This document shows positions 1,967 to 62,746 of a stretch of 64,000 nucleotides of DNA, piece by piece; position 1 is the first letter of the stretch, and every line of letters starts with the position of its first letter. The notes beneath the pieces are model-generated. The model was not told the DNA's origin, ran no database searches, and saw only the letters and a program-made list of their open reading frames with translations. Source of the stretch: Polytrichum commune (taxonomy: Eukaryota > Streptophyta > Polytrichopsida > Polytrichales > Polytrichaceae); assembly GCA_950295325.1 (NCBI GenBank), contig OX485804.1, positions 2,978,001-3,042,000 on the forward strand, in the 5' to 3' direction. The position numbers were made by a program, and so were the translations under genes.

Positions 1967-2328
1967 TTTGGGGAGACGACCCAAACACAGCCTATAGTTT
2001 GGGTCGATCGACCCAAACAGCACGATGTGCTTTGGGTCCCTAAACCCTAAACACAGCCTATAGTTTGGGTCGATCGACCCAAAGCACATCCTGCTGTTTG
2101 GGTCGGTCGACCCAAACGCAACCTCTATAGTATAAACTTTTCAAGAAATCCTTGATGACAATATAAAACGCAAATCCACCCAAGATAACGAAATACCATA
2201 TAAACATATAAATGAAGTTCTAAAATAACAAGACACAATCCAAAAATAAATGCGTTGATGCATTACATTTCCCTTCCATCACGTGACATCTAATCTATTG
2301 TGAAGAAGTTTGGGTCGAACGACCGAAA
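1967..2328. repeat. palindrome cluster A, 5' intron of locus 1
   Basis: Copies of a 20-bp palindrome with arms TTTGGGTCG and CGACCCAAA around a 2-bp centre. Perfect copies lie at 1998-2017, 2064-2083 and 2097-2116; a one-mismatch copy at 2309-2328; a degenerate one at 1967-1985; a half-site at 2031-2037. Between them, 24-base segments at 2015-2038 and 2076-2099 are inverted copies of each other with one mismatch, so the sites are nested in a larger hairpin. The last copy ends 27 bp before the chosen ATG. Confidence 0.9.
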
Positions 2329-2355: not shown

Positions 2356-3681
2356 ATGGCCCCAAAGAAAAGACCAGGAGAAAGGTGGTTCATGCTTGCG
2401 CTAGACGTGTTATGGCAGGAGCACGAAACACCTCAGGATGACTCATATGTCCCTAAGGACGGGCTTGTCCTTGCCTGGTCAATTCAAGTAGTAAAAACCT
2501 CCATTTACAAACTGATATTCGTTGTCAAAGTAGGGACCGTGGAAAAACATACCTGGGCGACTCTTACGGGATGGGAGGTGGCGTCGGTCCAGTCTTTTGG
2601 AGACTACGCAGACGTCATCCTTGAGAACAGCGCTGTGCAGAATGCTCATATGATTCTGCACCAGTTCGTCGAACCCTTTGACGCTACATATGCAAGGGAG
2701 TCATGTGTCGAACCTGACGTAATCAAACCCGAGACAATTTTCATCGATGCCAGTACATCGAACACAAAGGTCTCGAGCCGGTTTACGAAACTAAAGCATG
2801 CAATCAGCGTGCTCAACAAAGCCCTGCAGAGCAAAACAAAGTCTCAGCAAGCCGTCAGGCGGAAGGTACCCACTGAGGAAGGTGCAGGGTCGTCAAGGCC
2901 TCAATCGGTGAGGATGCCGCAACCAGTCCCGGCTAGCTCAAGACGAACCACTCCATCGGAGACACCGGCGGATAGCCAGACTCCTACGCCTTCTGGTAGC
3001 CGCCAAACAACTCCCTCCAAGAGGGCGAGAGAGTCATCTGTGATGACTGACGAGCCAGTCTCTCCAGAATTGCGCATGCCGAAGCCAGGGCAGGAAGTGG
3101 ATGCAGGGGAGATCCAAAAAATCGTGAACAATTTCACGACCAAGTGCTCCCATTGCTTTTTCATGGGCAGGGATTTCAAATTCGACGTGAACATCAGTCA
3201 GTCTCATCTCGTGCCACCAGAAAAATGTGTCCGGGCAAAAGAAGACGCCTACGTCGATTGGATAATCGCGCAGATCGTTAGCGAACAATTCAAAGACGAC
3301 AGACAAACCATTGTAGTGATGCCCCAGGGACTGAAGAAAATGCCTACCCCTGAAATGTGGGCGACAATTCAGAAAGGTGATTTTTGGCTCATAGACGGCC
3401 AACACAGCGTTGAGGCTTCCAAGAAAATCCAACTGATGACTGAGTGGGACAATCCCAACCATCAGAAGGAGAAGTTGAAGGTGTGGAAGGCACTGGTAGT
3501 GTGGTCTGACGATGAGACCCGACTGAACGACATCTCCCGTTACTTTAACATGGGGAATAAGAAAAGGGCCTACCAAGCTTCCTGGATAAGGAATATCATG
3601 GCCTCGCGGGAGGTGTGGGAGTTCTATGGTAGGCCTCCCAAGGAGAGGGAGAATGCAAAGGACAAGAATCCCAAGTGGGAG
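2356..3681 (+). CDS. locus 1 exon A: DGQH (ParB-like) domain protein
   Basis: N-terminal coding exon. I prefer the ATG at 2356, which opens MAPKKRP and aligns with the locus 2 ATG (MARSSRS); an in-frame ATG at 2338 is possible. An N-terminal domain (about residues 1-170) is followed by a Ser/Thr/Pro-rich linker rich in TPS motifs (about 175-250), then a domain ending in FWLIDGQHSVEASK, with the GAC of DGQH at 3394. IDGQHR-like motifs mark ParB/Srx and DndB-like nucleotide-binding domains in bacteria and phages; here Arg is Ser. The exon ends at GAG|GTGAGT (3681), phase 0. Locus 2 encodes a clear paralogue with the same order of blocks (VMPQGL/VMPKGL, IDGQHS, VWSDD). Function is not established; DNA binding or nucleotide-dependent clamping is inference from the motif. 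Confidence 0.7.
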
Positions 3682-3691
3682 GTGAGTATTG

Positions 3692-3803
3692 TTTGGGTCG
3701 ATCGACCCAAACTCCTTTTGCAGCTTTATTTGTGTACTTTGGGTCGCTCGACCCAAAGTCTTGTTGCAGTCATGTTTTTTTAGTTTGGGTCGATCGACCC
3801 AAA
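3692..3803. repeat. three palindromes in locus 1 intron (3682-3893)
   Basis: Perfect copies of the 20-bp palindrome at 3692-3711, 3738-3757 and 3784-3803, spaced about 46 bp start to start. They differ in the 2-bp centre (AT, CT, AT). They fill the first half of a GT-AG intron bounded by GTGAGT at 3682 and ATGCAG ending at 3893. Confidence 0.93.
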
Positions 3804-3893
3804 CTCTTGGTGCAGATACTGGTCATGATATGTTTTGGAAATCACATGTTCATATCTAACATGCATTCAAATGATTGTTTTGATCACATGCAG

Positions 3894-5225
3894 GACTTCA
3901 AATACCAAATGATAAATAAATTCTCCTCCATTGATAATGCTAGTCACAAACAGAAGAAATACAACGAGCTTAGAGGGGAGATTTATTTAATAACAGCATC
4001 CGACTCCGTTTGGATGAAGTGGAAGAGTGTATTTGAGAAGCATGAGATGGGTGAGCTCATCGACCCGGACACAGGAATTTTCTTCAACCAAACCACGCGC
4101 TTCAAACAAATGAAGCCTCTCGTGAGAGAGTTCTTTAGAACTCTTCAAGGCCTTTCCGAGACGGAGATGGAGAAGGCGGCGGCGCACATCCTGCATTTCA
4201 CGCCCACGGCGAAAAGGTGCTGGGTGCACCCGAAGATTGTCTTCTTAAAGCCCAAATCCTTCGTCCCTTCATGCTACACCATGAAGGAATGGACGGAGAA
4301 TAGGAAAAAGAAGACAACTATAGTGCAGGAGCTGCATAAATTGGTGCCGGAGAGGAATATTGTCGTGGACGGCGAGGTTCATGAGGCTAACTGGAGAGCA
4401 TTCAAAGCTGAATATAAGTTCACCAGTGCCTCCATGGCGGCTCTAATAAGGGAAGCGGGGGATGACTTCTTGCGGGCCAAGATGGTGAAGGGTGGGAAGA
4501 ACCGGGCGCTTCCAGATCACACAGCGCGTGCGTTCTCGAACTTCATCAAGGAGAAGAAGATTGTCCAGTTTGAAGGGGACGCTTACTTCAACCTTGTCAC
4601 CTTCGAGCCTTTGAAAATTCAGGGCTGGCCAGGTCAAGACGCCAGAATGGCGATAAGGACGAAAGCAGGGGGGCGTTTCCCATTCGAAATGATAGATTTC
4701 AGGAACATTCCTGGAAGCTCATTTGAGGGTACGATGAGCACACTGTTTTACGACCCCTTCCTATCTAAGTTCGTCGATTATGCGAGTCCTAAGTTCAGGG
4801 AGGTTGATGTCTGGCTATGGATAGTCGAGGATAGGAGGGCGGAGCAGGTGTACGACCTTGTCCGGAAATTGCAGCCGGAGTATGCAGTGTCCAAGTCTCA
4901 TTATATCGCCGCACCGGCGGAGGGGGCCTACACGTCGTTGAAGGACAAGAAGACCAAGGTCGTCAACGTCCTGTGTTTGTACTTCGTGTACAAAGCGGAG
5001 TTGTTGAAGGTGCCGAACCACCCTATATCCCGGATGGACAAGCTCTTCCAAGTTCCAGATGGGTTAGGTTCCAGCAAATGCCTATACGACGAGGCCAAAT
5101 ACGCAAACTATCCTGCAGATGAGCTGCGGATGGAATTCTACATGCGGATGCTGAGGACGCTGACTAGGAGAGGGGACTGTATCTTCAACGTGTTCGGGGG
5201 CTCGAAACCCCTCTATGCTGCCATG
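3894..5225 (+). CDS. locus 1 exon B: methyltransferase-like region
   Basis: Internal exon of 444 codons, phase 0 at both ends (CAG|GAC at 3893/3894 and ATG|GTAAGT at 5225). It continues the exon A protein. Toward its end are, in order: STLFYDPF (about residues 283-289), DVWLWIVED (305-313), a long mixed stretch, and CIFNVFGGSKPLYAAM (429-444) running across the splice into LGLNIYSYIEDG. This order, a DPPY-like motif first and an FxGxG-like motif later followed by an acidic residue, is that of beta-class N4/N6 amino-methyltransferases. Both motifs are degenerate (DPF for DPPY; FGGSKP for FxGSGT), so the enzyme may be divergent or inactive. ParB-domain and methyltransferase fusions are known from phages. 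The fold call is inference. Confidence 0.6.
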
Positions 5226-5254
5226 GTAAGTTACATTCTTTAGCTCTTGCGCAG

Positions 5255-5274
5255 TTTGGGTCGGTCGACCCAAA
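5255..5274. repeat. palindrome in locus 1 intron (5226-5343)
   Basis: One perfect copy of the TTTGGGTCG-armed palindrome with centre GT, 29 bp into a 118-bp GT-AG intron (GTAAGT at 5226; GTGTAG ending at 5343). Confidence 0.92.
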
Positions 5275-5343
5275 CTAGATATTGTTTTTGGTCTTGTTTT
5301 TTGTCTTGCAAATTCTAATTTCTATATAACTTGGATTGTGTAG

Positions 5344-6840
5344 ATGTTGGGGTTGAACATCTACTCGTACATAGAGGATGGCGATCTGCAATTTTACAGG
5401 ACGCAGAAATCGCTGGCAAAGAAGATGGATATCCTCGATTGGATCCCGGGAAGCTACGTGGACGAGGTTGTTGAGGGGGGTGAGAACCCTCTTGATAGGG
5501 CGAGGCGGATCAACCCGGAAGAAATTACGATGAGGGCAACAACCCAATTACCCGAACCTCTAGTCGGGTTGCATCCGGGCAATCCGTCCCGTACAGGAGG
5601 TGGAGAGGTGGAAGAGGAGGAGGAAGAAGAAGAACACGGAGAGGAGGAAAAGGAGGGGGATGTGGAGGAAGGGGCAACGGGATTCACGCAAGAATCTGAA
5701 GCCCCTCAGAGGAAGAAGGCTATGCGTGTGGCAACCCCGCAGAGTAAGATGATGCCCGTCCTTACGGTGGACGATGCGAGGGACATGTACTCCAGGGACG
5801 CGACTGCCACGTTCCGGGAGAGGAGGAAGTTAAAGGGAAAGAAGCTCTATGGCGATTACGCATTGGAGGAGACCATTGCCATTAGCAGCGAGGACGACGA
5901 CGACATTGAGCTCGCCAAACGGCTCAGATCGGATCCCCCCTCCCCGACAGCGTTCGCAGGCATGGTTAGGGTGAAACCCGAGGTCCTCACTATGGAGGAA
6001 GCCAACGAGAAGATGCGTAGAGACGAGGAACAGCGCGTCCGCCTGCAGAGGGCTGCCGCAGAAGAACCCTCCGTGCGGAACGAGGTCGCAGAGCTGAGGG
6101 CTCTCCTCTTGGAACAAGAAAGACTAAGGGCGATGGCCCAACCTCCATCCAGCGCCGACTTGATATCGCAAGTCATACAAGGGATGTGGGCGCAAGGATT
6201 GGTGGTGGCTCCATCCAGCTCGTTTCCGCACTTGCCCCCCGGTTTCCCAGCGCAGAGCATCCCTCAGCACCCAGTGTCGCAAGGGTCATTCAGCTTCCAG
6301 CACATGATGCGGCCGCCCCATGTTCCGTACGCGCCGGTCCAACAAGTGGACGATCCCAACATCTGGCGCGTATCTGGAGCCTCCTCCCCGTTGGGCCCTC
6401 CACCACTACGGCCCCCCATAGTGATGGCGCCCCCTCACCAGCCGGACGATCCCAGGATGTTTGGGTCGACTGACCCAAACCCACCCTCGACTGTAGTGCC
6501 CCAAGGCGCCTCCCCCGATGCAAGACAGTTTGGGTCGCCCGACCCAAGCCCCGGAGCAGCTCAGTACTCCTTTGACGAACTTGTGTCTCAAAGAGACACG
6601 ACCATGTTAGATGTTGAAGGCCTCCAAGGGCCTGGTGATACCTCTAATCCTAACCAAATCGATGAACCCATGCATGATGCATATGCGGAGATTGATTTAG
6701 GACAAGGGCCTGATGCTCAACCTTTGCAGGACAAGGTCCCTGACGTAGGCGGAGAAGGCGGTGGCGAGAGAGGTGGGGCACCGGGGACGGTGGAGGCATC
6801 CACATCGTCGAGACATGACCAGGGCGAGGTAACACACTGA
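5344..6840 (+). CDS. locus 1 exon C: C-terminal acidic and Pro-rich region
   Basis: It begins right after the TAG acceptor and opens MLGLNIYSYIEDG, completing the methyltransferase-like motif left open by exon B. Later parts are low complexity: a Glu-rich block (about residues 80-115), a charged helical segment near 215-270, and a Pro/Gln-rich tail with two in-frame copies of the palindrome that encode MFGSTDP and QFGSPDP. The open frame ends in TGA at 6838-6840, but a GAG|GTAACA donor at 6828/6829 followed by another palindrome suggests splicing to an exon now beyond the retrotransposon (see 17212-17340). Acidic and Pro-rich tails are common in nuclear proteins; no further function is claimed. 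Confidence 0.6.
   Translation: MLGLNIYSYIEDGDLQFYRTQKSLAKKMDILDWIPGSYVDEVVEGGENPLDRARRINPEEITMRATTQLPEPLVGLHPGNPSRTGGGEVEEEEEEEEHGEEEKEGDVEEGATGFTQESEAPQRKKAMRVATPQSKMMPVLTVDDARDMYSRDATATFRERRKLKGKKLYGDYALEETIAISSEDDDDIELAKRLRSDPPSPTAFAGMVRVKPEVLTMEEANEKMRRDEEQRVRLQRAAAEEPSVRNEVAELRALLLEQERLRAMAQPPSSADLISQVIQGMWAQGLVVAPSSSFPHLPPGFPAQSIPQHPVSQGSFSFQHMMRPPHVPYAPVQQVDDPNIWRVSGASSPLGPPPLRPPIVMAPPHQPDDPRMFGSTDPNPPSTVVPQGASPDARQFGSPDPSPGAAQYSFDELVSQRDTTMLDVEGLQGPGDTSNPNQIDEPMHDAYAEIDLGQGPDAQPLQDKVPDVGGEGGGERGGAPGTVEASTSSRHDQGEVTH
6460..6548 (+). repeat. two palindromes inside the coding sequence
   Basis: 6460-6479 (centre AC, one mismatch) and 6529-6548 (centre CC, last base changed) are near-perfect copies of the locus 1 palindrome. 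They lie in the same reading phase of exon C, so both translate to FGS-x-DP. Confidence 0.88.
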
Positions 6841-6850: not shown

Positions 6851-6870
6851 TTTGGGTCGACCGACCCAAA
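6851..6870. repeat. palindrome in interrupted locus 1 intron
   Basis: A perfect copy with centre AC, 22 bp after the GTAACA donor at 6829 and 29 bp before the retrotransposon target duplication. Confidence 0.92.
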
Positions 6871-8354: not shown

Positions 8355-8358
8355 TAAT

Positions 8359-15667: not shown

Positions 15668-15729
15668 CTAGGCAACTTACCTTGGGAGCAAGTGATTTTT
15701 GGGATTCATCCCCCGATGGTCGCCAATTA
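15668..15729 (+). other. gap between Pol and 3' LTR without a clear polypurine tract
   Basis: Only 62 bp lie between the Pol stop and the 3' LTR. The bases just before the LTR (GATGGTCGCCAATTA) are not purine-rich, so no standard polypurine tract can be assigned. Confidence 0.5.
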
Positions 15730-17184: not shown

Positions 17185-17211
17185 CGTGGTCTTGTCCCCC
17201 CTAGCTATGAG

Positions 17212-17641: not shown

Positions 17642-18671
17642 CTCGGGGAGTTCACTAGACATGTATATATGTATACACGTGCGTGACAAGGGTATTTATT
17701 CAAGGGGTATTTAATTATCCATCCTTAATTTTTTGTACCGTATTATTATATAATTTGCTAATTTCTTGTTTTTTAAATGACCCCATAATTACTTTTAAAT
17801 TTGATGAAGCTCTAATTTTAAGCTAGGTATGTTCATTATAATTATTTGATTTTGCTCCAAAGGGTTTAAGAGCATTCAAAGTACTTAGTCACCAAAATCC
17901 AAGGCACAACAAGGTTTTACATTAAGAGTTTTCATAAACAGTTTCAAACAACAAAACTAGCCCATGTTCCTCAATCAAGTTACACGCACAATTAAACACA
18001 ACGATACTGAGTGTAAAAAAACAATTAAAACACCAACAACAAACGGATGGCAACCATCGGTCTGGACTCAGGACTTGGGAGTGAAATGGGACTTACATGC
18101 AAGCACGAGTTCCAAAGCTGGACTTGTGTGGTCGTTATGAAGATTCGACCTCCACTCAAAGTAGAGAGAGAGAATGACCTGCACAGGCCGCCTGCAAACC
18201 CCACCTCTCAGAATGTCAACAACGTCGAAGAAAAAACTCTCGGCAACACTAAACCGCAAACCCCACCTCTCAGAACGGTGAAAAAAACTCTCAAAACCTA
18301 ATCCTCCAGCAATGTTCTCCCCCAATTTTTCCTAAACCCTAATCCGTCAGCCACCCTCATCTATCTTTCATCCCATTTTTTCAACTGAATCGACGTAGTT
18401 TTTCATCCAAAATCTTCCCGCCTCTGAACACAAAGGACACCCTATTTCAAAAAAAACCTAGGATCCTTAAATCCTACGGTATATTTTTACAAATATTTTA
18501 AAAATATGCGTTATTTGTATCAAGCCTATATTATTTATAATACAAATTTTATCATACATACTCACCTATATTACTTCTAAGAAAATTCTAAGTTTTTCCT
18601 TTTGTGAATATAAATTACCCTATATTTTCCCGCACGTTGTTTTCTAATATTATCACAGTGAACTCCCCGAG
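17642..18671. mobile_element. non-autonomous TIR DNA element, 1,030 bp, 8-bp target duplication
   Basis: 15-bp perfect terminal inverted repeats (CTCGGGGAGTTCACT and its complement) are flanked by a perfect 8-bp duplication AGGACAGC (17634-17641 and 18672-18679). Subterminal words CACGTGCGT near the left end and CGCACGTTGTT near the right end recur in the relative at 33,824-34,109. No transposase frame inside. An 8-bp duplication fits hAT-like elements among others. A 22-bp segment is repeated internally at about 18,190 and 18,250. The insertion is in coding sequence. Confidence 0.9.
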
Positions 18672-18679
18672 AGGACAGC

Positions 18680-19432
18680 GTGGTGGTCCCCCCGATTTTG
18701 CCCTCCCCGTCTCCGCCGCCCAAGACACGGTTCCTGGTGCTAGACCTCAACGGGGTCCTCGTCCAGTGCGTGCACTGTCCCAAGGTCCCCACGGTGCCTT
18801 TCTGCAAGCCCGAGGACGGGAACTACGATGGTCCCCCCGCGTACATCAAAAGCAAGCTAGTGTACCTCCGCCCGTGGCTTCGGCGCTTCCTGCAGGTCGC
18901 CCTATCCAAATGGTGGGTGATCGTGTGGAGCTCCATGAAGTCCGAGAACACCCAGGCCGTCGTGGAGTTCATCTTCAAGGGACTCCAACCCCCGTGCTTG
19001 GTCCTAGGACAGGATTCTTGTAAAACATTATACACCCCCGAGGGCAGGGTTGTGAAGAAGCCCAACAACCCCGCCGTAAACCAGTTTCTTAAGGTCTTGA
19101 AGCCAGTCGTATGGGACCAGCGTCCAACTATGGTTGGCTGTCCCTACGATGTTCGCCCCACCCGTGACAACACGTTGATGGTGGACGACAGCGCTTCCAA
19201 GAACATTTTGAACCCGACCTCGAACTTCATAGTTTGCCCCACGTGGACGGTCGAGAAGGTCCGAGACCGCTTTTTGTTAGACCTACTTAAGTACCTTCAA
19301 ACGCTCGTGGGGAGCGGACTACCCGTGCCCCGGTTCCTTAGTTGTAATCCGATAGGCGAAAGATACATGGATCCGAAGGACTATATGTACAGAGAGTTGT
19401 ACTCTCACGCAAAATATAATAAACTCATTTGA
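18680..19432 (+). CDS. FCP1/NIF-like (CTD phosphatase-fold) protein, main exon
   Basis: HAD-superfamily, NLI-interacting-factor type. The frame opens at a GTG (18680) because the true N-terminus is cut off by the TIR element. Counting from there, FLVLDLNGVLV holds the DxDx motif as D22-L-N24-G-V; WSSMKSEN (83-90) fits the second motif; LMVDDSASKN (166-175) is the Asp-Asp motif near the C-terminus of the domain. The second catalytic Asp is Asn, as in several plant relatives that I recall, so phosphatase activity is doubtful. The family normally acts on phosphoserines such as those of RNA polymerase II. The frame ends in TGA at 19430-19432; how it joins the next exon is unclear. Confidence 0.7.
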   Translation: MVVPPILPSPSPPPKTRFLVLDLNGVLVQCVHCPKVPTVPFCKPEDGNYDGPPAYIKSKLVYLRPWLRRFLQVALSKWWVIVWSSMKSENTQAVVEFIFKGLQPPCLVLGQDSCKTLYTPEGRVVKKPNNPAVNQFLKVLKPVVWDQRPTMVGCPYDVRPTRDNTLMVDDSASKNILNPTSNFIVCPTWTVEKVRDRFLLDLLKYLQTLVGSGLPVPRFLSCNPIGERYMDPKDYMYRELYSHAKYNKLI

Positions 19433-20722: not shown

Positions 20723-20869
20723 ATTAATGGGGTTCTTGTTCTAAACACCCGCTTCAAAGTGTTCGCATCTTACAACTTTCTCCAATATGTGTTCCATTTA
20801 TCCTTGTTCTTATTTCTGTGATTGTCTCAAAATGCCCAAAAAGTCTCAATTTAACGAATATAGTGTTAC

Positions 20870-21343
20870 ATGTTGAACCATGTCTATGACATCACGGATG
20901 AGAACCTCCCAATCACACCATTGTTGGAAGCCTGTCATATTGCCGATCCACAGAATGATGAAGGAGACCCAGTGGAACCCACAATGGGGGAGCGTAACAT
21001 TGATTACGAGTTTTACTACTTAGCATCGCAGATCCATGACGTAACGCGCGAGTTTATGGGACTACAGAGGACCATGACAACTGCTCTACAGAGATATACG
21101 GGCACTCTTTTGCTCAGCGATCGCATACACCGCCTTTGTATGTTGGTGTTAGCGGCAGAACACATTGGCTTTGACTCTCAGCAAAAAGCCTATCTTGGGA
21201 GCAAAATACCGGACTTGGCTTACATGGAGAAAGTTACATGGGAGCAATCTCAGGAAATCAAACCTCACTTGCCAAACATCTTTGAGTCCATGGCCAACCT
21301 GGACTCCACAATTTGCGAAAGCCAAGGCACAAATGTAGAGTAA
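20870..21343 (+). CDS. hypothetical protein, 157 codons
   Basis: An ATG-started frame with a mixed, protein-like composition: an acidic start, then helix-rich segments such as LASQIHDVTREFMGLQ and LSDRIHRLCMLVLAAEH. No family is recognised. It is in the same orientation as, and 540 bp downstream of, the FCP1-like gene and could be a remnant of a larger gene. Confidence 0.35.
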   Translation: MLNHVYDITDENLPITPLLEACHIADPQNDEGDPVEPTMGERNIDYEFYYLASQIHDVTREFMGLQRTMTTALQRYTGTLLLSDRIHRLCMLVLAAEHIGFDSQQKAYLGSKIPDLAYMEKVTWEQSQEIKPHLPNIFESMANLDSTICESQGTNVE

Positions 21344-28650: not shown

Positions 28651-31209
28651 CTACCGTGCGGCCTCTGGTGAAAGCTCTTCTCCTTTCGAAATTACCTCCA
28701 TATCCTCGATAGAAGTTGGTTCCTCACAAGAAGTTGAATCTTTTAGCTTGCGGAGGGCAACTTTATCCTCATCAAATGCATATTTAAGAAGCTTCCTCCC
28801 AGGGGATTCCGTGGGAGCAATTGTCAGATCTAGTAGTCTACTTGCAGCTCTTTCGCAACATTCTGTAGGTGCTATTAAGTGACCAGGTCCATCTAGGTCC
28901 TTCCTTACAAGGATTTCAATCTGCTCCTTGATTGACAAAATGGTGGATGCCACTGGTAGACATTCCAGAGCTTTCACCCAAAACTTTGAAGCAAGTTCAA
29001 CATTCTTTGGCACTCCACGACCCAATGCATAGCATCGGCCAAGCTCCACATATGCTCTTCCAAAACGATCATCCATGATAGTAGCAATCCTATAGTGCAA
29101 TGAAGCCTGTTCGAAATCTTCAGCGACACCGAGGCCCAACTCAAAGCAGTAGCCCAAACGCCAATGCGCTTCAGGATCATCATAGTCCCCCGCCAGATTC
29201 TGTAGGAGTTTGACTGCATTATTGTACTGGTGCTCAGCCCCTGTCCAGTCCCCCAAATAATTTGCAAAATCCAACTGCACTTGTATTCTTTTCACACAAT
29301 CTAACTCCATCCACTTGCGTTGTTGAATTGCAAGCATGACAACGTGTCTATACACGTCATCTGAAAGCCGTGGTGAGCCATTCTCATCCTTTTGAAGGCA
29401 CCATCGGAGGCCAAGGTGTTTCAAAAGCACTCGTGCCTCATTCTCATTGAAACTTGGTACATTAAATGCCAGTTCATTTCTGAGCAACCTCACCTTGCAA
29501 TATCGCAAAAACTCACATATATCAGAAAATGTCGGTCTAGACTTCGGATCTGTAGACCAACATTTACAGATGTATGCAGATAAAAATGTCGGGCAACTTT
29601 CTGAGTCAGGTAATTCCGGTCTGATCTGTCCATTCACTACTGCATTATGTAGCTCTCTTCTTAAGTTGCCATCGAAAGGAATTTTCCCTGTTAAGATCTC
29701 TGAGCAAGTGATTGCAAAACTGTACACATCTGCTGCCATTGTGTATTTATGCACGCCTCCTTTACTCCAGACTTCTGGGGCTATCCATGATCGAGTCCCT
29801 CTGTCCTTGGTTGTAATTACAGATGAGTTCGGCTTATGCTTGGATTCCCCAAAATCCGCAAGCTTGACAACCAAACAATTAGGGTCGCCACATCTGCAGC
29901 AACTCACCAAAATGTTTGTTGCCCTCAGATCCCGATGTACCACTCTACATTCCTCGAGATACTTCATGGCCTCTGCTATTTGTACCATGACGTTAATTGC
30001 TTGGAAAATAGAGAGTTTCGGTCCCTTCTGTATGCGTTCCCATAAATTTGCCCACATTATGTGTTCTGCATCAAAAGCTCCCATGAGCTCCATAGTAAGC
30101 GTTCCTTGGCTTTTATCTAGCCAGTAATCGAGAACTGGTACAATATGCGGATGCTGCAAGTCAGCAAATTCACTTTCTTTTTCAAAGTGGATTCGATAAT
30201 TCTCGTCCATGAACACCTTCACAGCCACCTCTATTCCTAGCCATTTCGTTCTGCTGACATTTCCATATGAACCACTCCCCAGGAGCCTTATAAATGTCAT
30301 ATTGTTCCTGCTTCGAAGCTGGGCTTCATTTGCAGGGGGTCGGCCTTGCAGTCTCCATACCATGAACTGAGCAAATTGATAATCTGTTGTCATGCCCAGC
30401 TCACTGGACGATGGAGCGTTGAGGTACTCAAGAAGACCTTTTGAGAAGGTCTGTCTGTCGTGTCCCACCACAGCATTATTTGGCATTTGCTCCGTGAGGG
30501 TAAACATCCTCAAGATGTCTTCGTTGTCAACATTAGGTGTCCTATCTTCAGATACGGTCAAAATACTAGCAATTGTTACTCCAACAACATGCAATATCCA
30601 TTGAAAATCTTGGAGGTGGAGATAAATCGGCGTAACTGCTTCCCATTGACGATGCTTCGGCTCAATAGTCACCCGTGTTAGGGCAGCAGGTATCCAGTCT
30701 TCACCGGTGCAATCTTGAACAAGAATCTCTCCATGTTTCATAACCCTTGTTAACTCCACAAATGTATCAAGAACGCATCGTAGCGTACGGATTTCATCGG
30801 GCCTTCTCATTGAGAATTTCAGGTAGTCCTGAGGATATTGCATCAAGACTTCGACGTTCAAGTAGGTCTCGATCATGCTTTCACATTGTAAGTGGTTAAA
30901 TTTGATCCTCTTCCTCATTTTCCTTAGCGACTTTATGACTTGCAAGCGCTTTTTCCACTCCTTGTTCATGGCCTCCCAAAATTGTTGATGAGAAATATCT
31001 TCTCCAATTGTTTGACTCTGTTCCTCATTCTCCGCCTCTTCGGTTTCTGAACCATTACCCTCACTTTCGTTCTGGAGCACATCTTTTCCAAGTCGATGTT
31101 CTTGGGTACTTCCTTCAGATACCCTCATCTTTGGCGAAGTAATTTCTGCCAATGCATCTACACTTTGTAGTCCTTGCAAATTCCTCTCCTCTTGCAGGCG
31201 AGGACTCAC
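28651..31209 (-). CDS. protein kinase with Sel1-like repeats
   Basis: Residues are counted from the GTG at 31209; the first in-frame ATG is codon 28 (31128). An acidic N-terminus and a helical region (about 70-300) precede a kinase domain: GSGSYGNV loop (311-318), Lys in VAVKVF (331), HRDLRATN (425-432), DFGES (452-456), IAPEVW (476-481). Arg in HRDLR replaces the Lys usual in Ser/Thr kinases, as in tyrosine-kinase-like families. At least two Sel1-like helical repeats follow (about 680-745: AHWRLGYCFELGLGV and AYVELGRCYALGRGV). All catalytic residues are present, so the domain could be active. The coding frame is unspliced. A diverged partial copy lies at 45,540-45,945. Stops occur in frame just before and just after this frame (31216-31218 TGA, 28651-28653 TAG). 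Confidence 0.85.
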   Translation of the reverse strand: MSPRLQEERNLQGLQSVDALAEITSPKMRVSEGSTQEHRLGKDVLQNESEGNGSETEEAENEEQSQTIGEDISHQQFWEAMNKEWKKRLQVIKSLRKMRKRIKFNHLQCESMIETYLNVEVLMQYPQDYLKFSMRRPDEIRTLRCVLDTFVELTRVMKHGEILVQDCTGEDWIPAALTRVTIEPKHRQWEAVTPIYLHLQDFQWILHVVGVTIASILTVSEDRTPNVDNEDILRMFTLTEQMPNNAVVGHDRQTFSKGLLEYLNAPSSSELGMTTDYQFAQFMVWRLQGRPPANEAQLRSRNNMTFIRLLGSGSYGNVSRTKWLGIEVAVKVFMDENYRIHFEKESEFADLQHPHIVPVLDYWLDKSQGTLTMELMGAFDAEHIMWANLWERIQKGPKLSIFQAINVMVQIAEAMKYLEECRVVHRDLRATNILVSCCRCGDPNCLVVKLADFGESKHKPNSSVITTKDRGTRSWIAPEVWSKGGVHKYTMAADVYSFAITCSEILTGKIPFDGNLRRELHNAVVNGQIRPELPDSESCPTFLSAYICKCWSTDPKSRPTFSDICEFLRYCKVRLLRNELAFNVPSFNENEARVLLKHLGLRWCLQKDENGSPRLSDDVYRHVVMLAIQQRKWMELDCVKRIQVQLDFANYLGDWTGAEHQYNNAVKLLQNLAGDYDDPEAHWRLGYCFELGLGVAEDFEQASLHYRIATIMDDRFGRAYVELGRCYALGRGVPKNVELASKFWVKALECLPVASTILSIKEQIEILVRKDLDGPGHLIAPTECCERAASRLLDLTIAPTESPGRKLLKYAFDEDKVALRKLKDSTSCEEPTSIEDMEVISKGEELSPEAAR

Positions 31210-53435: not shown

Positions 53436-54122
53436 ACTTGGATAAACAATTGGTCTTTGTTGTTATTCACCTCGTGTATGCTACTAACCCTCTATGTGGA
53501 TTTGGTTGGTGATATGGGCACATCCGAGGCAAACTCTCAACAAACTTGGCGGTATTCTTAAACTTTGTATCTCATCTTTTGTTACAAATAGTATGTATAT
53601 TGTTTAGATATTCTACAAGAAAGTTTGGAATACAAAGCATTTTTTATTAGAGAAAAAAAACCTTTGAGGATAGCTTGTGTTGATATTACATGCATCTTTG
53701 TTTTTGACTAAGTGAGAGATGGAACACTATATTCGTTAATCAGAGACTTTTGAAAGTCTCAAAATAAAATATGCCCATAGTTTGGGATGCCAATATTGTG
53801 GGCATACGGAATATTGGGAACATCAAGAACATGACGATTTAAAAATTCGCACGTAAAGCATATTATTATTACTAAAAATAGAGAATTTCAATTAAAAAGA
53901 AAAAGTGAGTTCCATGTGGAAAATAACAATCGACTCTAAAAAATAAATGGTTTATGTCATTATAGAGTTTGGGGTGCATCCCATAAGTAAGGCTCTTATG
54001 AATTTGGATGGCACATCCCAAACGTATACCACAATGGAATGTGACAAGTCCACTAAGTCTATTAAAAACCAAGTCTACTAAGCGTCCATGTTTTTCGCCA
54101 TTAACTCCCACCTATGTTATGT
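53436..54122. other. spacer
   Basis: AT-rich, no gene recognised. The right part is probably the 3' untranslated region of the - strand gene that ends at 54,123. Confidence 0.45.
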
Positions 54123-55642
54123 TTACACATCTCCATCTTCCGCTTCATATCCATTCTCGGCGTCATTTTTTGCCGCTGCAATACGTGCCAAGTTGTCTTT
54201 GGCAAAATCTATATGTTTTTGGGGGATGGTCATTGTTTCTGTTTTGGAACCTTTACGCGGCTTCCAAGCACAAAGTATAGTGTCCGTATTTATCCAAACC
54301 GGTGTGTACGCTGAGTCCATTGTCCACTTAAAATTCTTTTTGGTGTCCCAACCTAAATAAGTGCGTAGCACGTTTTGGTCTTTAGTGCTTGGACGACAAT
54401 ATTCCACCTCAATTTGACGAAAATTGGGGCTAGTTCGAACAAAATTGGGTGAAGACAATGCTTTCACCAACCAAATTGGCTTGGGATGTTCCTCATCCCC
54501 TGCTCGTACAAGGACCAAATAACCTTCATGGCAATCAACACCTACACGAAACGACGGTGCCGGTCGATTGCGGGCAGGGCCAACGTAATGCTCGTCCATT
54601 GCGAACTCTTCACGAACGTCTCCATTGCTAAAAAACATGGTGTCGGACTCGACAACCGTTAAACGGCTTTGTGGCCAAAATCCTTGTGTTAAAGTTGTAC
54701 AGGTGTCGCCACCAAGTGTCATTAGGGCCGAGCGAATGCGATCCCAATACGCAATCAAAGGTTCATGAGTATCTCTAACACGTCTAGTGATGTCCTCCTC
54801 ACACAACTCTTTCCAATATTCAATGAATCCGGATATGCCTTTGATGATTTCCGGCCCATTTCTCATGGGGTCGGGTTTGCAAGGCTTTGGATCCCCATCC
54901 GGAAGCAAACATTTGCCATCATTGTCTTGACGCCATACGAGTATACCATCATCCGGGCCCCAATTAGGAGATGTGCACAAAAACTTGAATTGCATGGCCG
55001 GGAGACCATCATCCCTTATATAGAATCGGAATTGTTGTGCTTTGGTATGCCCCACCAAACGGTCCCCTCCCTTCAACATGTATGGCTTGATGAAGGCCTT
55101 GAAATCTGGTACTTCCTCAATCAAGTGCGGAATTACTGGCATATGATCCAAATCCATATACGATTTCATAAGAAGAGGTATGGTTGGAAAATCTTCTTCA
55201 TGCAACTTCATGCTCCACCGTCCGAATGATGCATCAATGTCGTCGTGTGTATGTCCCACCATCAAGAAAGACACAAACACCTCCTTGAAGATTCCTTTCG
55301 CCACGAGCAATGACCAAAAACAAAATACGTATCGACATTTGTTGTCCTTCGCACAATTATCAAGTTGAACGTGGAGAGATGGAGGCAATGGTTTTGCACA
55401 AATGGGTTCTCCGGGTGGTTCTGGCAATGACGACATACAAACCTCCTTCCCCGCAAGCACTGCCTCATAAAGGGATGTGGTTCCACAACCATCAAAAAGT
55501 GCATGGGAAGAATGTACCGGTGGCTTCTCAAGATCGCGCAAGAATTTTGCAAATGAACCCACCGTGTGGTTAGCATCCCCAGGGTAAAAATCCAAACCAT
55601 AATGGGCATACTTTACGTCCCCATGGCCGTGGGCAATCATAC
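54123..55642 (-). CDS. DUF7869-like protein, last exon
   Basis: It starts after TTTTCCAG on the - strand and continues the previous exon in phase 1 (VVVTG joined to MIAHGHGDVKYAHYG). Conserved-looking core: LHVQLDNCAKDNKCRYVF, then VSFLMVGHTHDDIDASFGRW. I recall this pattern from a large family labelled DUF7869, common in mosses and some algae. The spaced acidic residues (QLDN, HTHDDID) resemble an RNase H-like transposase core, which is inference. The exon ends with an acidic tail and TGA at 54123-54125. No frameshift is visible within the exon. Confidence 0.7.
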
Positions 55643-55775
55643 CTGGAAAAAACAAACGATGCGTGACCAAAATAATCAAATAACCACTAAACGGATGTAT
55701 GGAGTTGGACATTTGCCAAACACACCCAAGAAAATTGGATAGACTTTAAACACGTAGTTGTGATTTCATACAAAC
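55643..55775 (-). other. intron of DUF7869-like gene
   Basis: 133 bp. The - strand donor ACAG|GTTTGT ends the exon at 55776; the acceptor TTCCAG|GTATG starts the exon at 55642. Splicing keeps the frame. Confidence 0.7.
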
Positions 55776-56706
55776 CTGTGACAACTACGGGCAACTTGAA
55801 GAGACCATCCGTGGCCTTTATTTTGCGTGCATAACAAGGGCATGCGGTTTTGGCGTGGTCCATTTTATCATGGATGACTGTTAGAACCTCTGTGGGCCTC
55901 ATTATGGATAGAGCACGATTCTTATAGTAATCTTGACGGTGTGCCTCTTGATTGTTGACATGCTCAATATATTTTTTCTGGTGTCTGGAATGAGATTCAG
56001 TGCCTATGGGATAGGCGTCTCGAAGACCTTTGTATTTTTTACACGTCGTACACCTTGCGAACTTGTCCCCGGGTCTTTTCAGAATGTATTCCGCAAACTG
56101 CTGGTTTTTAATCACACTCAACTTGGACAAAGAAATGGGCCCACATCCCGCTATGCGACCCACTTCATTGATGTCCGTTAAGATGTTCTTCCATTTTGTG
56201 CCCGTGGGCAACACCATTTGAACAACCTTCTCCCCTGACGACAATGTCCTCGTCTTGTGGGGCATTGCATCGGCCAATGGCACTATGATGGTGGATAGTG
56301 TCGCGGACGCTTGCAGTGTAGCCTCCCTAGGTTTCTTTGTGCCCGAGTTGCCATGAAATCGAGAGCAGCGACCCAACGATGAATACTTTCGAAACCTATA
56401 AAAGTCAGCCTTGGAGACGGCGTGGATGGTATACCACGCTGTACAACACACATCAACATTCTCAAGTGTCACCACCTTATGCCCATGTGTATCAAGGTGC
56501 AAATTTCTGTGGACCTCGAGTTTCTTAGCCGACCTCATACGAAAATCCGCAAGCCACATCTCTTGACGCAGAGACCTAATTTTCTCCCGCGGGAAAAATT
56601 GGCAACATTTCCTCGCGCAACAATCCTTGCCGGACACTAGATTCGTCCCCCAAAAGCCGATCCCGTCGACGCTCCTTATCTCCGCGAGGCACACGGTTTG
56701 AATCAT
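55776..56706 (-). CDS. DUF7869-like protein, middle part
   Basis: It carries a Cys-rich N-terminal block (CCARKCCQFFPREKIRSLR), then a His/Cys-bearing stretch (LENVDVCCTAWYTIHAVS) and, near the end, CTTCKKYKGLRDAYPIG and CPCYARKIK. Cys pairs suggest zinc binding ahead of the core in the next exon. The frame is open on both sides; the coding frame before it is one phase off, so a short intron or frameshift lies near 56,700. Confidence 0.6.
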
Positions 56707-57244
56707 ATCTACGGAGGCCTTTGCGAGGACGTGTTTTGGCCAACAAAGCTAATTGTGTTTGCTTATGCCGCCGCTCATGATCCCACAAACTCACTTCCTC
56801 ATGTAGAACTTGACGAAGCGGCCATCGAAGCAAGGAAAATCTCCATGTCACCGGGACCTCTAGCGGAAGCAAAGAGTTCAAGATGCACACGCCAACATCA
56901 TCGAGACCTAGGGCGTTGGCATCGACACAATCACGGGGATTGGAGTTTCTACATATGCCATCTGCCACCGGGACACCAACCTCGTTGAGTAGAACGACAT
57001 CAAGGCCAACCCATTGTTCCCTCCCGAAACCGGCACACAACGGAATGTCATCGTGGTCATCTCCGGAATGCAGAGATTGTTCGTGGACTTCCAAAGATTC
57101 ATGGGAGGATGTATCCACAAACACCCCCCTCACGTTTGGCACACCATTACTATTTGCCGACGGGGAAGACACTTCACTTTCAGCATCGGATGATGATGCA
57201 TATGTCGACAACTCCAATGAACTATCACCCACATGCAACGCCAT
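56707..57244 (-). CDS. DUF7869-like protein, N-terminal part
   Basis: Preferred ATG at 57244 (MALHVGDSSLELST); the same frame is open upstream to 57544 but that part looks non-coding. Acidic and Ser-rich start, then a basic stretch (HERRHKQTQLALLAK, TRPRKGLRRYD) that runs on past 56,707 in its own frame to 56,576. The meaningful frame shifts to the next segment near 56,700, so either the gene is broken by a one-base change or a short intron is present. Confidence 0.5.
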
Positions 57245-57566
57245 ACCACCTAGACCAACGACCAGGAAATGATCAACCCAACCACCACCGCAATGCATAT
57301 AAGAGAGGATAGAATATATGTGGAGATACATGGCCCAAAATTGACAAACAAATTTTGGTGCACCATTGGAGAACCTCACGCACAAAGACGAACGTGCGTC
57401 CCAAAAAAACGTTTTAAGCATACGTCTAGGAGCCTCACTAATGTAAACAATACATGGACAAAGAGGAGAACAATCGTTAGTCGTCCAGGAGGGCCCTGCT
57501 GTTCGGACCAACGTCTGTCCCCATACAACCAACGACGAAATCACAAATCCGAGAACGCCACATGCA

Positions 57567-58818
57567 TTTACGAACGCGCGTTCGTGACCTCAGTAACTTC
57601 TCCATGTGCATCCGGCGGCCTTCGAGATCCCTCATCTGAGAGTACCCTCAGGAATATCGGTTGTGTAGGTCAAAGTACCATGTTCACTTAGGAACCTGCA
57701 CGATACATTATCACAAGAGAACACTTGTCCATACGCACAAAAGTAGTAAATCTGAAGATGATGCCTGAATCAAGTCCAACAATATTTTGAACACTGAGCA
57801 CCTTCATATTGTGAATTTGATTATGTTGACTTTTGCTTAGCTACCCATTCACGAACGGACGTTCGTAAATGAGTGCGACCCCGTGTTCACATCCTTCACG
57901 GACGAGCGATAAGCATATTTTTCTTGCTATTATGTGTTCGTATATAACTGCCATACTGATGTGTATAAATGAAGATGTGTTGCTGGATGCGTAGACAATA
58001 ATGACATGTATTTACGAACGCACGTTCGTAAATTCCTGACCATCAGGTACCAATAGATACGGGTCAAATAAGTATGTATGATCCTCGAAGGCATATTTAC
58101 GAACGCACGTTCGTAAATGACTGTCATGAATTATGTGCATGTGACTAACCATATGAGTAGCTCAATCCAGAACATGCTCTCATGTGGGATTTACGAACGC
58201 ACGTTCGTAAATTACCGACCATCAGGTACCAACAGACACGGGTCAAATATGTATATATGAACCTCGAAGGCATATTTACGAACGCACGTTCGTAAATAAA
58301 TGCCATGGATGATGTGCATGTGACTATCCATGAGTAGCTCAATCCAAAACATGCTCTCCTGTGGGATTTACGAACGCACGTTCGTAAATTACCGACCATC
58401 AGGTACCAATAGATACGGGTCAAATATGTATGTATGATCCTCGAAGGCATATTTACGAACGCACGTTCGTAAATAATTGCCATGGATTATGTGCATGTGA
58501 CTATCCATGAGTAGCTCAATCCAAAACATGCTCTCATGTGGGATTTACGAACGCACTTTCGTAAATTACCGACCATCAGGTACCAATAGATAAGGGTCAA
58601 ATATGTCTGCATGGTCCTCGAAGGCATATTTACGAACGCACGTTCGTAAATAACTGACATGGATTACGTGCATGTGACTATCCATATGAGTAGCTCAATC
58701 CAGAACATGCTCTCATGTGGGATTTACGAACGCACGTTCGTAAATCCTTGCCATGTACAGGTCCGAATCATTTGTCTAAACCTGAAGCTCCTCATCTTTA
58801 CGAACGTGCGTTCGTAAA
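57567..58818. repeat. palindrome cluster B1 with 178-bp higher-order tandem array
   Basis: Twelve copies of a 22-bp palindrome, arms TTTACGAACG and CGTTCGTAAA around a 2-bp centre: 57567, 57848, 58010, 58096, 58190, 58275, 58367, 58452, 58544, 58629, 58723 and 58797 (starts). Nine are perfect; 57567 has two mismatches, 57848 and 58544 one each. From 58010 to 58744 they sit in about four tandem units of 177-180 bp, two palindromes per unit (starts 58010/58096, 58190/58275, 58367/58452, 58544/58629). The centre is mostly CA. The cluster lies just upstream of the - strand DUF7869-like gene. Confidence 0.95.
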
Positions 58819-60340
58819 GTTCCGGTATTTACGGCGGTATATGCGGTAGGTACAGCCTGTACTGTACCTGGGTGGTGTAGGGTTGGCGCACACGATATGG
58901 CTTGAGTGCGTTCAGTGAGGTCTGTAGAGCGCACACTTGCATGTGCCGCTGAAAAGAGCTTTGTTGTGGGGGGAAGAGCTTTAAGTACTTCACACCGCTG
59001 GTTCAAAATCCCTTGGATGCTCTTTAAAAAACGGATTCCCGCCGCCTTCTTTGACCTAACAATCTCCCATTCCATCCATGCGGAATTATATAAATAGCAC
59101 TATCATGTATGGAACATGCCTTGCATGCACGCCAAAATATTGAAAATATATAAATCGGTTGCACACCTTAGTTGTGACCAAGGTCTCATCGAAATATATG
59201 TATATACATATATATATCTATATCTATATATACACATAATGTCTAAATATGGAGATGGTTAACATTGAATATTTAATGATTTGCGACTAAGGTATGAAGT
59301 CCAAGTTAATTGACAATTAATGCCTAATAAAGTTATGAATGTCTAAGTCATAGATATATATATATTTATTTATACACATATACACACACACACACAATGA
59401 GGTCAGAGTGGCTAAGAACATGTTGCAGACGCCCCTAAAATTATAGGTATCATATGTTTCACATCAAAAAATGACCGTAATATGGTCACCAAGTGCATGA
59501 ATACAACTAAAACATCGGGTTAATCCATAATGGCTTGCACTAGGGTAGATTGAGGACATTATGAACTAATTATACCTAATAATATATGTAAGTTAGGTCT
59601 TCTTTCAAATGGTATCTAGGTGTGAAAATAAGGAATTAAAATGACATGAGTAGGAAGGATTAATCAATTTGTAATGCTGCATAGTATGATAGCGTAATGA
59701 TCATTGAGACTTGAAACCATACTAGCTACCGTAACGTTGAATCATAGTTACAATTATTATGTGTTTGACGTCCTATTGGAAATTGAATTTTCCTCCACTT
59801 GTTGTAAGGGTACGGATACACATTGGTTAAATGTTTATTAGATCATTGGTGATATTTATAGTTGACACATGATTAAATGAGTTGAGGTCCTATTGGAAAT
59901 AGACTTTTAGGGTTTTGGGAAATGCACTATTAATTTGGAATGGTGCATACAATAGTATGTACTTACAATTAATATATGTTTTGCATCCTATGAGAAGGAT
60001 GTGCATCATGATAGCTTAAAGTGTTGATATAAATTGAAGTCTTAAGACATGCATGTTATTATAATAAGATCGTGGATTGTGTGATGAAATTTCACTCATA
60101 ACTATTAAGGTGAAACAGGGAATATTTGAAATTTCACTTATCACCTAAACCAAAGTTTTATCTCAAATCTATTAATTTGGAATGTGAAAATGACAATTGG
60201 CATCATTATCAATTATTATAGTTGTTATGAACGGAATTAAGCATTCTCCATCCAACCAACATTGGTAGACCAATTTGACCTGCCCTCAGACAACAACATG
60301 GCCACATATAAGAAAGGTTGGTAAGATAAAAAGATGCAGG
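58819..60340. other. AT-rich spacer
   Basis: No gene recognised. (TA)n and (CA)n tracts occur at about 59,200-59,240 and 59,360-59,397. Confidence 0.5.
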
Positions 60341-60344
60341 GATG

Positions 60345-60428
60345 TAGGGTTTAGGGTTTGCGGTTAGGGTTTAGGGTTTAGGGTTAGGGTTTGGGTTTGG
60401 GGGTAGGGTTTAGGGGTTTAGGGTTTGT
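60345..60428. repeat. interstitial telomere-type repeat (TTTAGGG)n, degenerate
   Basis: About ten imperfect copies of TTTAGGG/GGTTTAGGG in the G-rich orientation on the + strand, opposite to the tract at 252-286. Confidence 0.88.
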
Positions 60429-60964
60429 GAAAGTTGTGTATGTGGTATTTGGGTTTAGGTTTTAGATTGTTACTAGGATACCTTACACACACAAACAATA
60501 TTGACTCCTCAAAAACCCTTGTAATTGCACTGACTTCATTCATCGCAAGCTCGTAGTTGATGCTAGCAAAATAGTTGACCACTCCATAAATGCATTAGTT
60601 CAAGCTAACACCTAATATTGGAACTTGAATTGACATCCTATCGTATAGCAACTCTCCGCAATCTCATATTATGAATTCCTTTTTGCATGTAATATTTATT
60701 TGAGGAACCATCGAATTAATTGAAAGATATCTAGCTCTTACATAAACTATATTTTAAAACACCATATACATATCTTTGGGGGTGGATTCTACATTGACAA
60801 CCTAGGAAATGACATGCATTGTTTATTACGAATTAAATGAGCATACTTTTCTAAAATATGTTTACAAGGAATCCAAATGTAGAGGTACTAAGGAAATAAA
60901 ACGAGTAAAATTCATGTATTTGAACTAAGCTTTTCAAGTTAATGCCCTAAACGCGTCCATTACA

Positions 60965-60972
60965 TATAAATA
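60965..60972 (+). promoter_or_regulatory. TATA-like box upstream of locus 2
   Basis: TATAAATA lies 50 bp before a (CCCAT)n-rich stretch and about 1.8 kb before the locus 2 ATG. The long repeat-rich leader and intron between them match the locus 1 layout. No other promoter signal is claimed. Confidence 0.35.
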
Positions 60973-61013
60973 TGTCAAAGCATGAGTATAACATGAAGGG
61001 TTCCAATATACAA

Positions 61014-61088
61014 CCATCTCCCATCTCCCATCGCATCCCATCCCATCCCTTCCCATCACCTCCCATACCATCCCATCCCATCTCTCTC
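61014..61088. repeat. (CCCAT)n pyrimidine-rich microsatellite
   Basis: Imperfect repetition of CATCCCATCC and CATCTCC in the putative locus 2 promoter. Confidence 0.85.
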
Positions 61089-61244
61089 CCAGCCCTAGCC
61101 AGTGGAGCTGTGCCACGTGGCAGGTGCTGGGAAACCCTAGCAGCGCAGCTACCTCCCCGCGCCCCTTCCTCTTCTCCTCATTTGTCATTTCGAGGAGAGG
61201 AGGAGCGGAGCCCTTAGAGAGCGAAGCTCTTGCTTTTTTTAGTC

Positions 61245-61769
61245 TTGAAGTTTTAAATTAGCTTTGTTGCAAGTTTTGAGAGATTTCAGATTGAGAGCTT
61301 GTGTGAAAGCTTGTGAGTTTGTAAAAGCTTTCAGTGTGAGAGTTTGTGAGTTTCAAAAGCTTGAGAGCTTGAGGAGGAAAGCTTCAGAGTTTCGGATTGA
61401 GAGCTTGAGGGTGATCTTTAGAAGCTTGAGAGTTTAAGGAAGCTTCAGAGTTGAAGCTTGAGAGTTTAGGGAAGCTTCAGAAGTGAAGCTTGAGAGTTTA
61501 GGGAAGCTTCAGAAGTGAAGCTTGAGAGCTTAGGGAAGCTTGAGAGTTAAGGGTTTGCTTAAGAGTTCAGAAGCTTGAGAGCTACAAGCTTGTGAGTTTT
61601 GTGTACATGGGAGTATACTAGGGTTTGTATATAAGCTGTGAATGCTTGAGGTCTGTATTAGAGAGTTAACTGAGTGTGCATTTGAAAGGCAATTGAGTGT
61701 GCAGTTGTGAGGATTTCTGGGATTTTCAGAAAGAGAAGAAGCAGGATTTGAAGTGTGCAGCAATTCAAT
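61245..61769 (+). other. putative 5' leader of locus 2
   Basis: Built of repeats on GAGAGCTTGTG and a 32-bp tandem unit containing GAAGCTTGAGAGTTTAGGG (about 61,421-61,560; copy starts 61453, 61485, 61517). It ends in a weak donor CAAT|GTAATT (61769/61770). The following intron would run to the GTTGCAG that ends at 62774 and carries ten palindromes. Same layout as locus 1. Confidence 0.45.
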
Positions 61770-62060
61770 GTAATTTCTTATCCTTTCCAATTCCTCTCAC
61801 ATTCTGAAAATGTTGCTTCTTGAATTCAATTTGTTTTGTTACATGCAATGTGAATTATTACTTTCTTCTTCATGTTTCATTCTCAATCTCATTCTGCATC
61901 TCAATTGCGTTCTGATTCAAGATTTGCATCATTCTGACCAAGATCTGCAGACATGGCTGCAAGCAGGTTGCTAATAAATGAGACATATACGTATATATAT
62001 ACGTATTCGTATATATACGAATACGTATATGTACGGACAGGGGATCCCAAAACCATCACA

Positions 62061-62746
62061 TTTACGAACGCTCGTTCGTAAATGGACATACACTGCATAC
62101 CCACCTCCATTTACGAACGCTCGTTCGTAAATGGACATACACTGCATACCGAACCTCCATTTACGAACGTGCGTTCGTAAATATGCACTCCACGTTCATT
62201 GGAATGCTCTATATTTACGAATGCACGTTCGTAAATACGCACTCCACGTTCATTGGAATGCTCTATATTTACGAACGCACGTTCGTAAATATACGCCACA
62301 TATCACTCAGATGGAACCTTAACTTTAATATGAACCTATCCGAATATCTAAAGAACAAATATAAAATTGCGAACACCAATAAAACAACTCACATGTACTT
62401 ACGAAAACTAAATCAACCAAATGTCCGAAAAGATAGACCAAATGGAAATACTTACGAACGCACGTTCGTAAACAAAATCAAATCTAGAAAACCTATATCT
62501 TTTACGAACGATCGTTTGTAAAAATAACAAAATATATTGCAAATACATTCATGACGAGTAGTCTCTTTGATCTTAATATCGTTTACGAACGCTCGTTCGT
62601 AAACTCAATACTAAAAATTTATATTATCTTGCAACCCCTCATTTACGAACGAACGTTCGTAAATATAATTACATCAATTGCAAAGACGCATTAACACTGC
62701 TTAGTATGTGGGATATGCATGTCATTTACGAACGTTCGTTCGTAAA
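62061..62746. repeat. palindrome cluster B2, 5' intron of locus 2
   Basis: Ten copies of the TTTACGAACG-armed palindrome start at 62061, 62110, 62160, 62214, 62268, 62451, 62501, 62582, 62642 and 62725. Seven are perfect; 62214 and 62501 each have one CpG-to-TpG change in an arm, and 62451 has one changed end base. Centres vary (CT, CT, TG, CA, CA, CA, AT, CT, AA, TT), so the arms but not the centre are conserved. The last copy ends 28 bp before the ATG. Confidence 0.95.

Follow-up and report, generated by a model that had tools for sequence, protein, structure and literature searches.

The closest described counterparts of the elements reported here are giant DNA transposons of algae. The 21.5-kb transposon Sola1-1_Ec32 of Ectocarpus encodes an accessory ParB-methylase protein, and the accessible text of that account cites green and red algal cases as well (PMC12477816). 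Target duplications of 4 bp are a feature of Sola elements, which are also present in the moss Physcomitrella (PMC10741241; PMC9033089). For VANC of the Arabidopsis VANDAL transposons the available text describes element-specific motifs in introns and in intergenic and terminal non-coding DNA, tandem motif arrays that diverge between related elements, and a loss of methylation on the targets (PMC5735166, PMC10398659). In bacteria the ParB relative VirB is presented, in the accessible part of the source, as a CTP-clamp antisilencer (PMC10770331), and the open portion of a survey covers ParB-CTPase folds in eukaryotes, methylase fusions in phages and the ParB-like repressor DndB (PMC12704722). 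Here we describe a stretch of 64,000 nucleotides from Polytrichum commune (assembly GCA_950295325.1, contig OX485804.1, positions 2,978,001 to 3,042,000 of the forward strand; hereafter the window), in which two paralogous genes for proteins of this kind, at locus 1 and locus 2, are each accompanied by a palindrome of their own. In the open-licence literature, as far as its text was available, we found no description of target palindromes for ParB-methylase transposon proteins. Judged against these sources, the kind of protein is already known from algal transposons, and the diversified arrays of target sites are the new part.

At locus 2 the palindrome TTTACGAACG(NN)CGTTCGTAAA is present in 22 copies, which lie in two clusters beside a paralogue of the locus 1 gene, just as a first-pass annotation of this DNA had proposed. 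The right arm is degenerate in the first copy (57567). The layout, which is common to loci 1 and 2, is a minus-strand DUF7869 gene, then the palindrome region, then a plus-strand gene:

54123..57544, minus strand: DUF7869 gene of locus 2, in three overlapping open reading frames (ORFs); Pfam PF25273, E 2.8e-39 for the ORF at 54123-55712
57567..58818, no strand assigned: palindrome cluster 1, 12 copies, in the stretch that separates the ParB-methylase-fold gene from the 5' end of the DUF7869 gene
62061..62746, no strand assigned: palindrome cluster 2, 10 copies, directly 5' of the start codon
62775..64000, plus strand: exon 1 of the locus 2 ParB-methylase-fold gene, with an in-frame TAG at 62985

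Judging from the acceptor ...TTGCAG/ATG, cluster 2 probably lies inside an intron of the 5' leader. The half-site TTTACGAACG, allowing one mismatch, has 44 matches in the window, 43 of them within the arrays and one outside at 54609; shuffled versions of the window gave a mean of 2.3, and 44 was reached in none of 100 shuffles. Four further sites of the locus 2 type follow in the next 18 kb after the window. Across the genome (408 Mb in 64 contigs) the palindrome was found at about 5060 places with at most one mismatch, because the element that carries it is repetitive, and a reversed-pattern control gave none. The genome also has TTTAGGG-type repeats, which are plant-like. A detector blind to the letters of the arms, which asks for CG-NN-CG and at least 7 of 8 complementary flanking positions, gave 29 hits in the window, every one at locus 1 or locus 2, against an expectation of 0.017 (first-order Markov model, 60 simulations).

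Locus 1 has a different palindrome, TTTGGGTCG(NN)CGACCCAAA, with 11 occurrences at 1998-6870, each with at most one mismatch, and 12 more sites just upstream of the window (nine exact, the others with up to three mismatches). Its sites outside the coding exons are the following:

1998..2328, no strand assigned: palindromes 5' of the locus 1 gene, four sites, one mismatch in the last
3692, 3738 and 3784: three palindromes in intron 1
5255: one palindrome in intron 2
6851..6870, no strand assigned: palindrome about 10 bases past the stop codon

Exon 3 of this gene contains in-frame near-palindromes at 6460 and 6529 (one mismatch each), which are translated as FGSTDPN and FGSPDPS. The annotation had held that neither palindrome occurs at the other locus, and over the window and the 30 kb upstream the locus 1 palindrome was indeed absent at locus 2 and the locus 2 palindrome absent at locus 1. 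The 30 kb upstream of the window contain another DUF7869 gene and another three-exon paralogue. A third palindrome, CTTCCTCTCG(NN)CGAGAGGAAG, accompanies this third paralogue: copies lie close to the DUF7869 gene, ahead of the paralogue's start and within intron 1; the ends of its element were not found. The idea that paralogues carry differing, cognate-looking sites in matching positions is borne out, with the third paralogue included.

Exon 1 of the third paralogue has relatives in the genome at 96, 77, 71, 68, 62, 54 and 47% identity, the last two being partial matches. We fetched 13 of the 117 third-paralogue matches, picked for diversity, with about 900 bases upstream and 450 downstream, and in addition 6 of the 183 matches of the locus 1 and 2 types; together with the loci described above (LOC1, LOC2 as the window copy and copy C, and LOC3) these made a set of 23 paralogue stretches. 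Neither paralogues lacking palindromes nor one palindrome common to all was found: each of the 23 has at least two detector sites, and a single design, N8-CG-NN-CG-N8', is present throughout in seven half-site versions, TTTACGAA, GTTTGGGT, CTTCCTCT, GTTCCTCT, CTTCCACT, CTTTCACT and, in one stretch, GATCCACT. The half-site is followed by CG, two centre bases and CG, with the centre free in some families and AT in others. The version largely tracks the protein subfamily, and the sites of an array have mostly changed in concert; the locus 1 site is identical in two copies with 91-92% protein identity, and the locus 2 site in four copies that are 72-74% identical to the metagenome query P0048. In the sequence blocks retrieved, 242 kb in all, the detector reported 176 sites, of which 168 have the inner letters of one of three types and the remaining eight are one- or two-base variants.

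In one element, L031, CTTCCACT-type sites lie upstream and GTTCCTCT-type sites in intron 1, a mixture that may be a switch in progress. Metagenome relatives whose frames run into introns (P0005-P0032, P0052-P0116) seem to have further half-sites, TTTCGGGCG, TTTCGGTCG and TTTGGGCCG, read back by eye, so that there may be more versions outside this genome. In some palindromes the perfect pairing of the arms extends well beyond the shared region, by 51 bp outside the core in L030 (245-352) and by 19-23 bp in L031, L034, L035, L038 and L039, and in L029 arms of 29 bp surround an imperfect core; such long arms are unlike simple binding sites.

Within one stretch the half-sites agree at 7.0-8.0 of 8 positions. 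Between the types of clade 3 they differ by 1-3 of 8, while rough estimates of synonymous divergence (dS) in exon 2 are 1.0-4.2 or past saturation; for pairs of the same type the ratio of nonsynonymous to synonymous divergence (dN/dS) is 0.24-0.28 at low dS, with the exception of L030-L031 (0.08). Among four copies of the locus 2 element, 7 of 78 palindrome CpGs have changed versus 30 of 123 elsewhere (p 0.008), and 13 of 419 palindrome columns are variable versus 278 of 4943 (p 0.03), the palindrome columns having been chosen by similarity (at most two mismatches in any row), which favours conservation somewhat. A shortened relative, element D, has no ORF of at least 100 amino acids resembling, by eye, the DUF7869 or the DGQH gene, and the GQH motif was not found in it. 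It nevertheless retains parts of the intergenic region (73-79% identical) and 39 palindromes with at most two mismatches, mostly in two arrays. This suggests that the sites are useful to an element that is served in trans. A short stretch of D (L020/L021) resembles, by eye, the NIF phosphatase ORF described below.

The three-exon protein is predicted to combine a PH-like fold (weak), a ParB/KorB-type CTPase fold (here called 'DGQH') and a beta-class DNA methyltransferase fold. In the locus 1 gene these are distributed as follows:

2356..3681, plus strand: exon 1, with the PH-like domain, a linker and the ParB-type (DGQH) domain
3682..3893, plus strand: intron 1, borders GAG/GTGAGT ... TGCAG/GAC
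3894..5225, plus strand: exon 2, with a helical region and the beta-class N6A/N4C methyltransferase fold
5226..5343, plus strand: intron 2, borders CATG/GTAAGT ... TGTAG/ATG
5344..6840, plus strand: exon 3, a low-complexity tail

Both introns have consensus splice borders. Exons 1 and 2 were modelled separately, and in the predicted models ParB-like and N4C/N6A methyltransferase folds occur in one gene. The DGQH domain has a predicted ParB/Noc/KorB fold, the best Foldseek matches for exon 1 being KorB (E 0.035-0.12), although none of 49 family members matched a ParB profile of Pfam at E 0.1. The annotation's likening of the system to ParB/parS is supported by this predicted fold. DndB has a DGQHR motif. 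Active beta-class methyltransferases have DPPY at the catalytic position. A motif of this type was not seen in the family, in A2 or in clade 3; at the place assigned to it by eye from the fold order there is instead DFRxxPG, with R invariant and D, F, P and G nearly so in A2, and the same motif is seen in clade 3. The methyltransferase fold is thus probably without catalysis. Between site types, at nine clade 3 loci, identity is 75-82% in the ParB-like stretch, 54-62% in the N-terminal stretch (PH-like in the locus 1 model) and 49-82% in exon 2, and in the linker it falls to as little as 22%. Within exon 1 no part varies less between site types than the DGQH domain, which is for this reason unlikely to hold the specificity; if the protein reads the sites, the N-terminal domain or exon 2 is the more likely place.

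With the algal ParB-methylase proteins, as far as the accessible account goes, the protein described here shares its setting in a giant DNA transposon, the presence of ParB-like and N4C/N6A methyltransferase parts in one protein, and a position on the strand opposite the transposase; unlike them, as there described, it is accompanied by palindrome arrays in seven versions, and the methylase motif is apparently lost. As with VANC, motif arrays lie in non-coding parts of the encoding transposon and differ between related elements. The sites here, however, are palindromes of 22-26 bp whereas the VANC motif is YAGTATTAY, and homology to VANC was not seen, though no search aimed at it was made. The likeness is one of working and not of membership, and anti-silencing, which has been shown for VANC, is what we infer here.

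We propose that the ParB-methylase-fold protein recognises the palindromes of its own transposon as cognate sites and acts as an anti-silencer, a statement to which, taken whole, we would give an even chance. The protein would bind the palindrome of its own family, with its two half-sites and a 2-bp centre that is free in several families, as a dimer, and would load there as a ParB-type clamp. The clamp would keep the promoters and introns of the element free of silencing, as VANC does for VANDALs and VirB against H-NS, and, the sites being private, each family could benefit its own elements, gene-less derivatives included, and leave the host's silencing in place. Both gene starts, the introns and the region past the stop have sites nearby or within them, and the ends do not, which argues for control of expression or chromatin rather than end recognition, and the protein most likely acts as a sequence-specific anti-silencer or regulator. 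A fuller version can be put forward tentatively, in which ParB-type clamps joined to an inactive methylase fold exist in seven or more specificities, each loading at the CG-NN-CG palindrome of its family, spreading over its own element and shielding it from silencing, so that private addresses end cross-activation; we think it more apt to fail than to hold.

Protein divergence goes along with palindrome divergence in the full clade 3 set and not in a reduced one. Over 14 clade 3 loci, on an in-frame stretch of 89 residues, site and protein distances are correlated (r 0.58, p 0.0002; without L037 and L038, r 0.48, p 0.002). In the first version of this calculation the half-site labels were set by hand, L029, with two differing detector sites, took the label of the adjacent locus, and the comparison of L037 and L038 was partly out of frame. 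On a tree of clade 1, built from 21 of 48 metagenome proteins with the frame into intron 1 and the palindrome read from the translation by eye (P0048 as outlier), there are 5 label changes versus 6.9 in shuffles, and 3 of 200 shuffles were as low. Two observations weigh against strict co-evolution of protein and sites. When near-copies were thinned to six loci the correlation disappeared (r 0.22, p 0.29), and common descent may therefore explain it; and L031 has sites of two types. In our weighing the thinned test weakens one argument for anti-silencing, and the others stand.

Several other explanations bear on the same evidence. Subterminal arrays of the En/Spm TnpA type keep close to the ends of their element, no more than a few hundred bases away. 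At loci 1 and 2 a distance of 3.8 kb separates the left end from the site closest to it, other sites lie in introns and past the stop, and the annotation's comparison with subterminal transposase-binding arrays is not supported. The nearest site to the right end is about 2.6 kb away in copy C and 0.9 kb in the shortened D. The DUF7869 transposase, or both proteins together, might still bind the palindromes for transposition, as enhancer or synapsis sites. One cluster does lie at the 5' end of the DUF7869 gene, and gene-less D keeps its inverted ends, a CATA duplication and its palindromes as a transposition requirement predicts, but the distance from the left end, the sites in the introns of the other gene and a 257-bp element with similar ends and just one decayed site make this unlikely. 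If the protein were instead a KorB-type auto-repressor or copy-number control, loading at the palindromes and sliding to shut both divergent promoters of its own element, the KorB matches of exon 1 and the sites around both gene starts would follow, and KorB is described, in the accessible text, as a sliding clamp and long-range repressor (PMC11790492). Dense arrays in a gene-less copy are, however, easier to see as a benefit than as extra repression, and we regard auto-repression as distinctly unlikely.

Methylation of the palindromes by the element's own protein (N6A or N4C), giving a mark of self to be read by the host or the element, seems very unlikely, given DFRxxPG where the fold order places a catalytic DPPY. 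The palindromes might, lastly, be mutational products (cruciform extrusion, template switching) or RNA hairpins of introns rather than protein sites. The arms beyond the shared part, with perfect flanks of 51 bp in L030 and 19-23 bp in L031, L034, L035, L038 and L039, speak for such an origin. A shared CG-NN-CG core with subfamily half-sites is, on the other hand, also present in intergenic DNA, the sites are conserved against a nearly saturated dS, and they are retained in gene-less D, so that we consider this origin highly improbable.

If the palindromes are cognate sites, the ParB-methylase proteins of eukaryotic transposons gain a concrete, testable candidate target sequence, and the subfamilies supply naturally varied proteins, each with its matched sites, from which a recognition code might be worked out. 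Anti-silencing, if true, would be a second, unrelated origin of VANC-like self-protection, from a bacterial-type clamp. The family-specific tags may form a self-recognition system, by which an element is kept active and the rest of the genome is left untouched.

The elements that carry the palindromes end in imperfect inverted repeats starting AACACTATATTCG, 26 of the first 29 bases being alike in copy C. Two of these repeats lie in the window:

20839..20867, minus strand: right terminal inverted repeat of the locus 1 element; a similar repeat 6.2 kb before the window is the left end
53723..53751, plus strand: left terminal inverted repeat of the locus 2 element, AACACTATATTCGTTAATC..., at an alignment break common to copies A and C; B, C and D have it in inverted form at their right ends

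Copies A, B and C, on contig C1, align with the window at about 91-98% over kilobases; among these three both ends were seen only in C, which is 16.1 kb long (C1:5765316 to about 5781390). ACAT flanks the locus 1 element on both sides, and element D (C1:639070-648560) has inverted ends with CATA on both sides, each a 4-bp target duplication; at copy C, the third copy with both ends visible, a clean target duplication was not seen. The shared inverted ends and the 4-bp duplications in these two clear cases place loci 1 and 2 together in a single superfamily of large inverted-end transposons. The duplication length is common to Sola elements, though it may be shared by other superfamilies, and the putative transposase gene here is matched to DUF7869 (E 2.8e-39 and 4.8e-43 at the two elements).

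Intact copies of the locus 2 ParB-methylase-fold gene are present elsewhere in the genome. A query with locus 1 exon 1 gave, as the best-scoring 95 of 1155 candidates, matches at 90-100% identity, 71 of them without an internal stop, and a query of the locus 2 type had 88 scored of 1085 candidates. Past the three-exon gene, at locus 1 and also in copy C, comes a phosphatase ORF, listed here for locus 1:

18662..19432, plus strand: NIF/FCP1-like phosphatase ORF of the locus 1 element (PF03031, E 2.3e-14 and 2.9e-16)

The locus 1 element is lengthened by a nested long terminal repeat (LTR) retrotransposon at 7000-17300 of the window, with gag-pol-like ORFs (by eye) at 9279-15667; one and the same 35-bp tandem array, present at 7593-7867 and again at 16423-16697, is probably a mark of its two LTRs. 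The locus 1 element is directly flanked by two ORFs that are similar by eye (C2:2971300-2971791 and window 20864-21343), and it perhaps sits inside the element of the third paralogue. The 257-bp element mentioned above, at -29895 to -29639 relative to the window (C2:2948105-2948361), has similar terminal repeats and one decayed TTTGGGTC-type site, and looks like a miniature inverted-repeat transposable element of the locus 1 family. Between the elements of loci 1 and 2, at 28651-31209 on the minus strand, lies an ORF of 852 amino acids with a protein-kinase-like stretch (by eye), which is probably a host gene.

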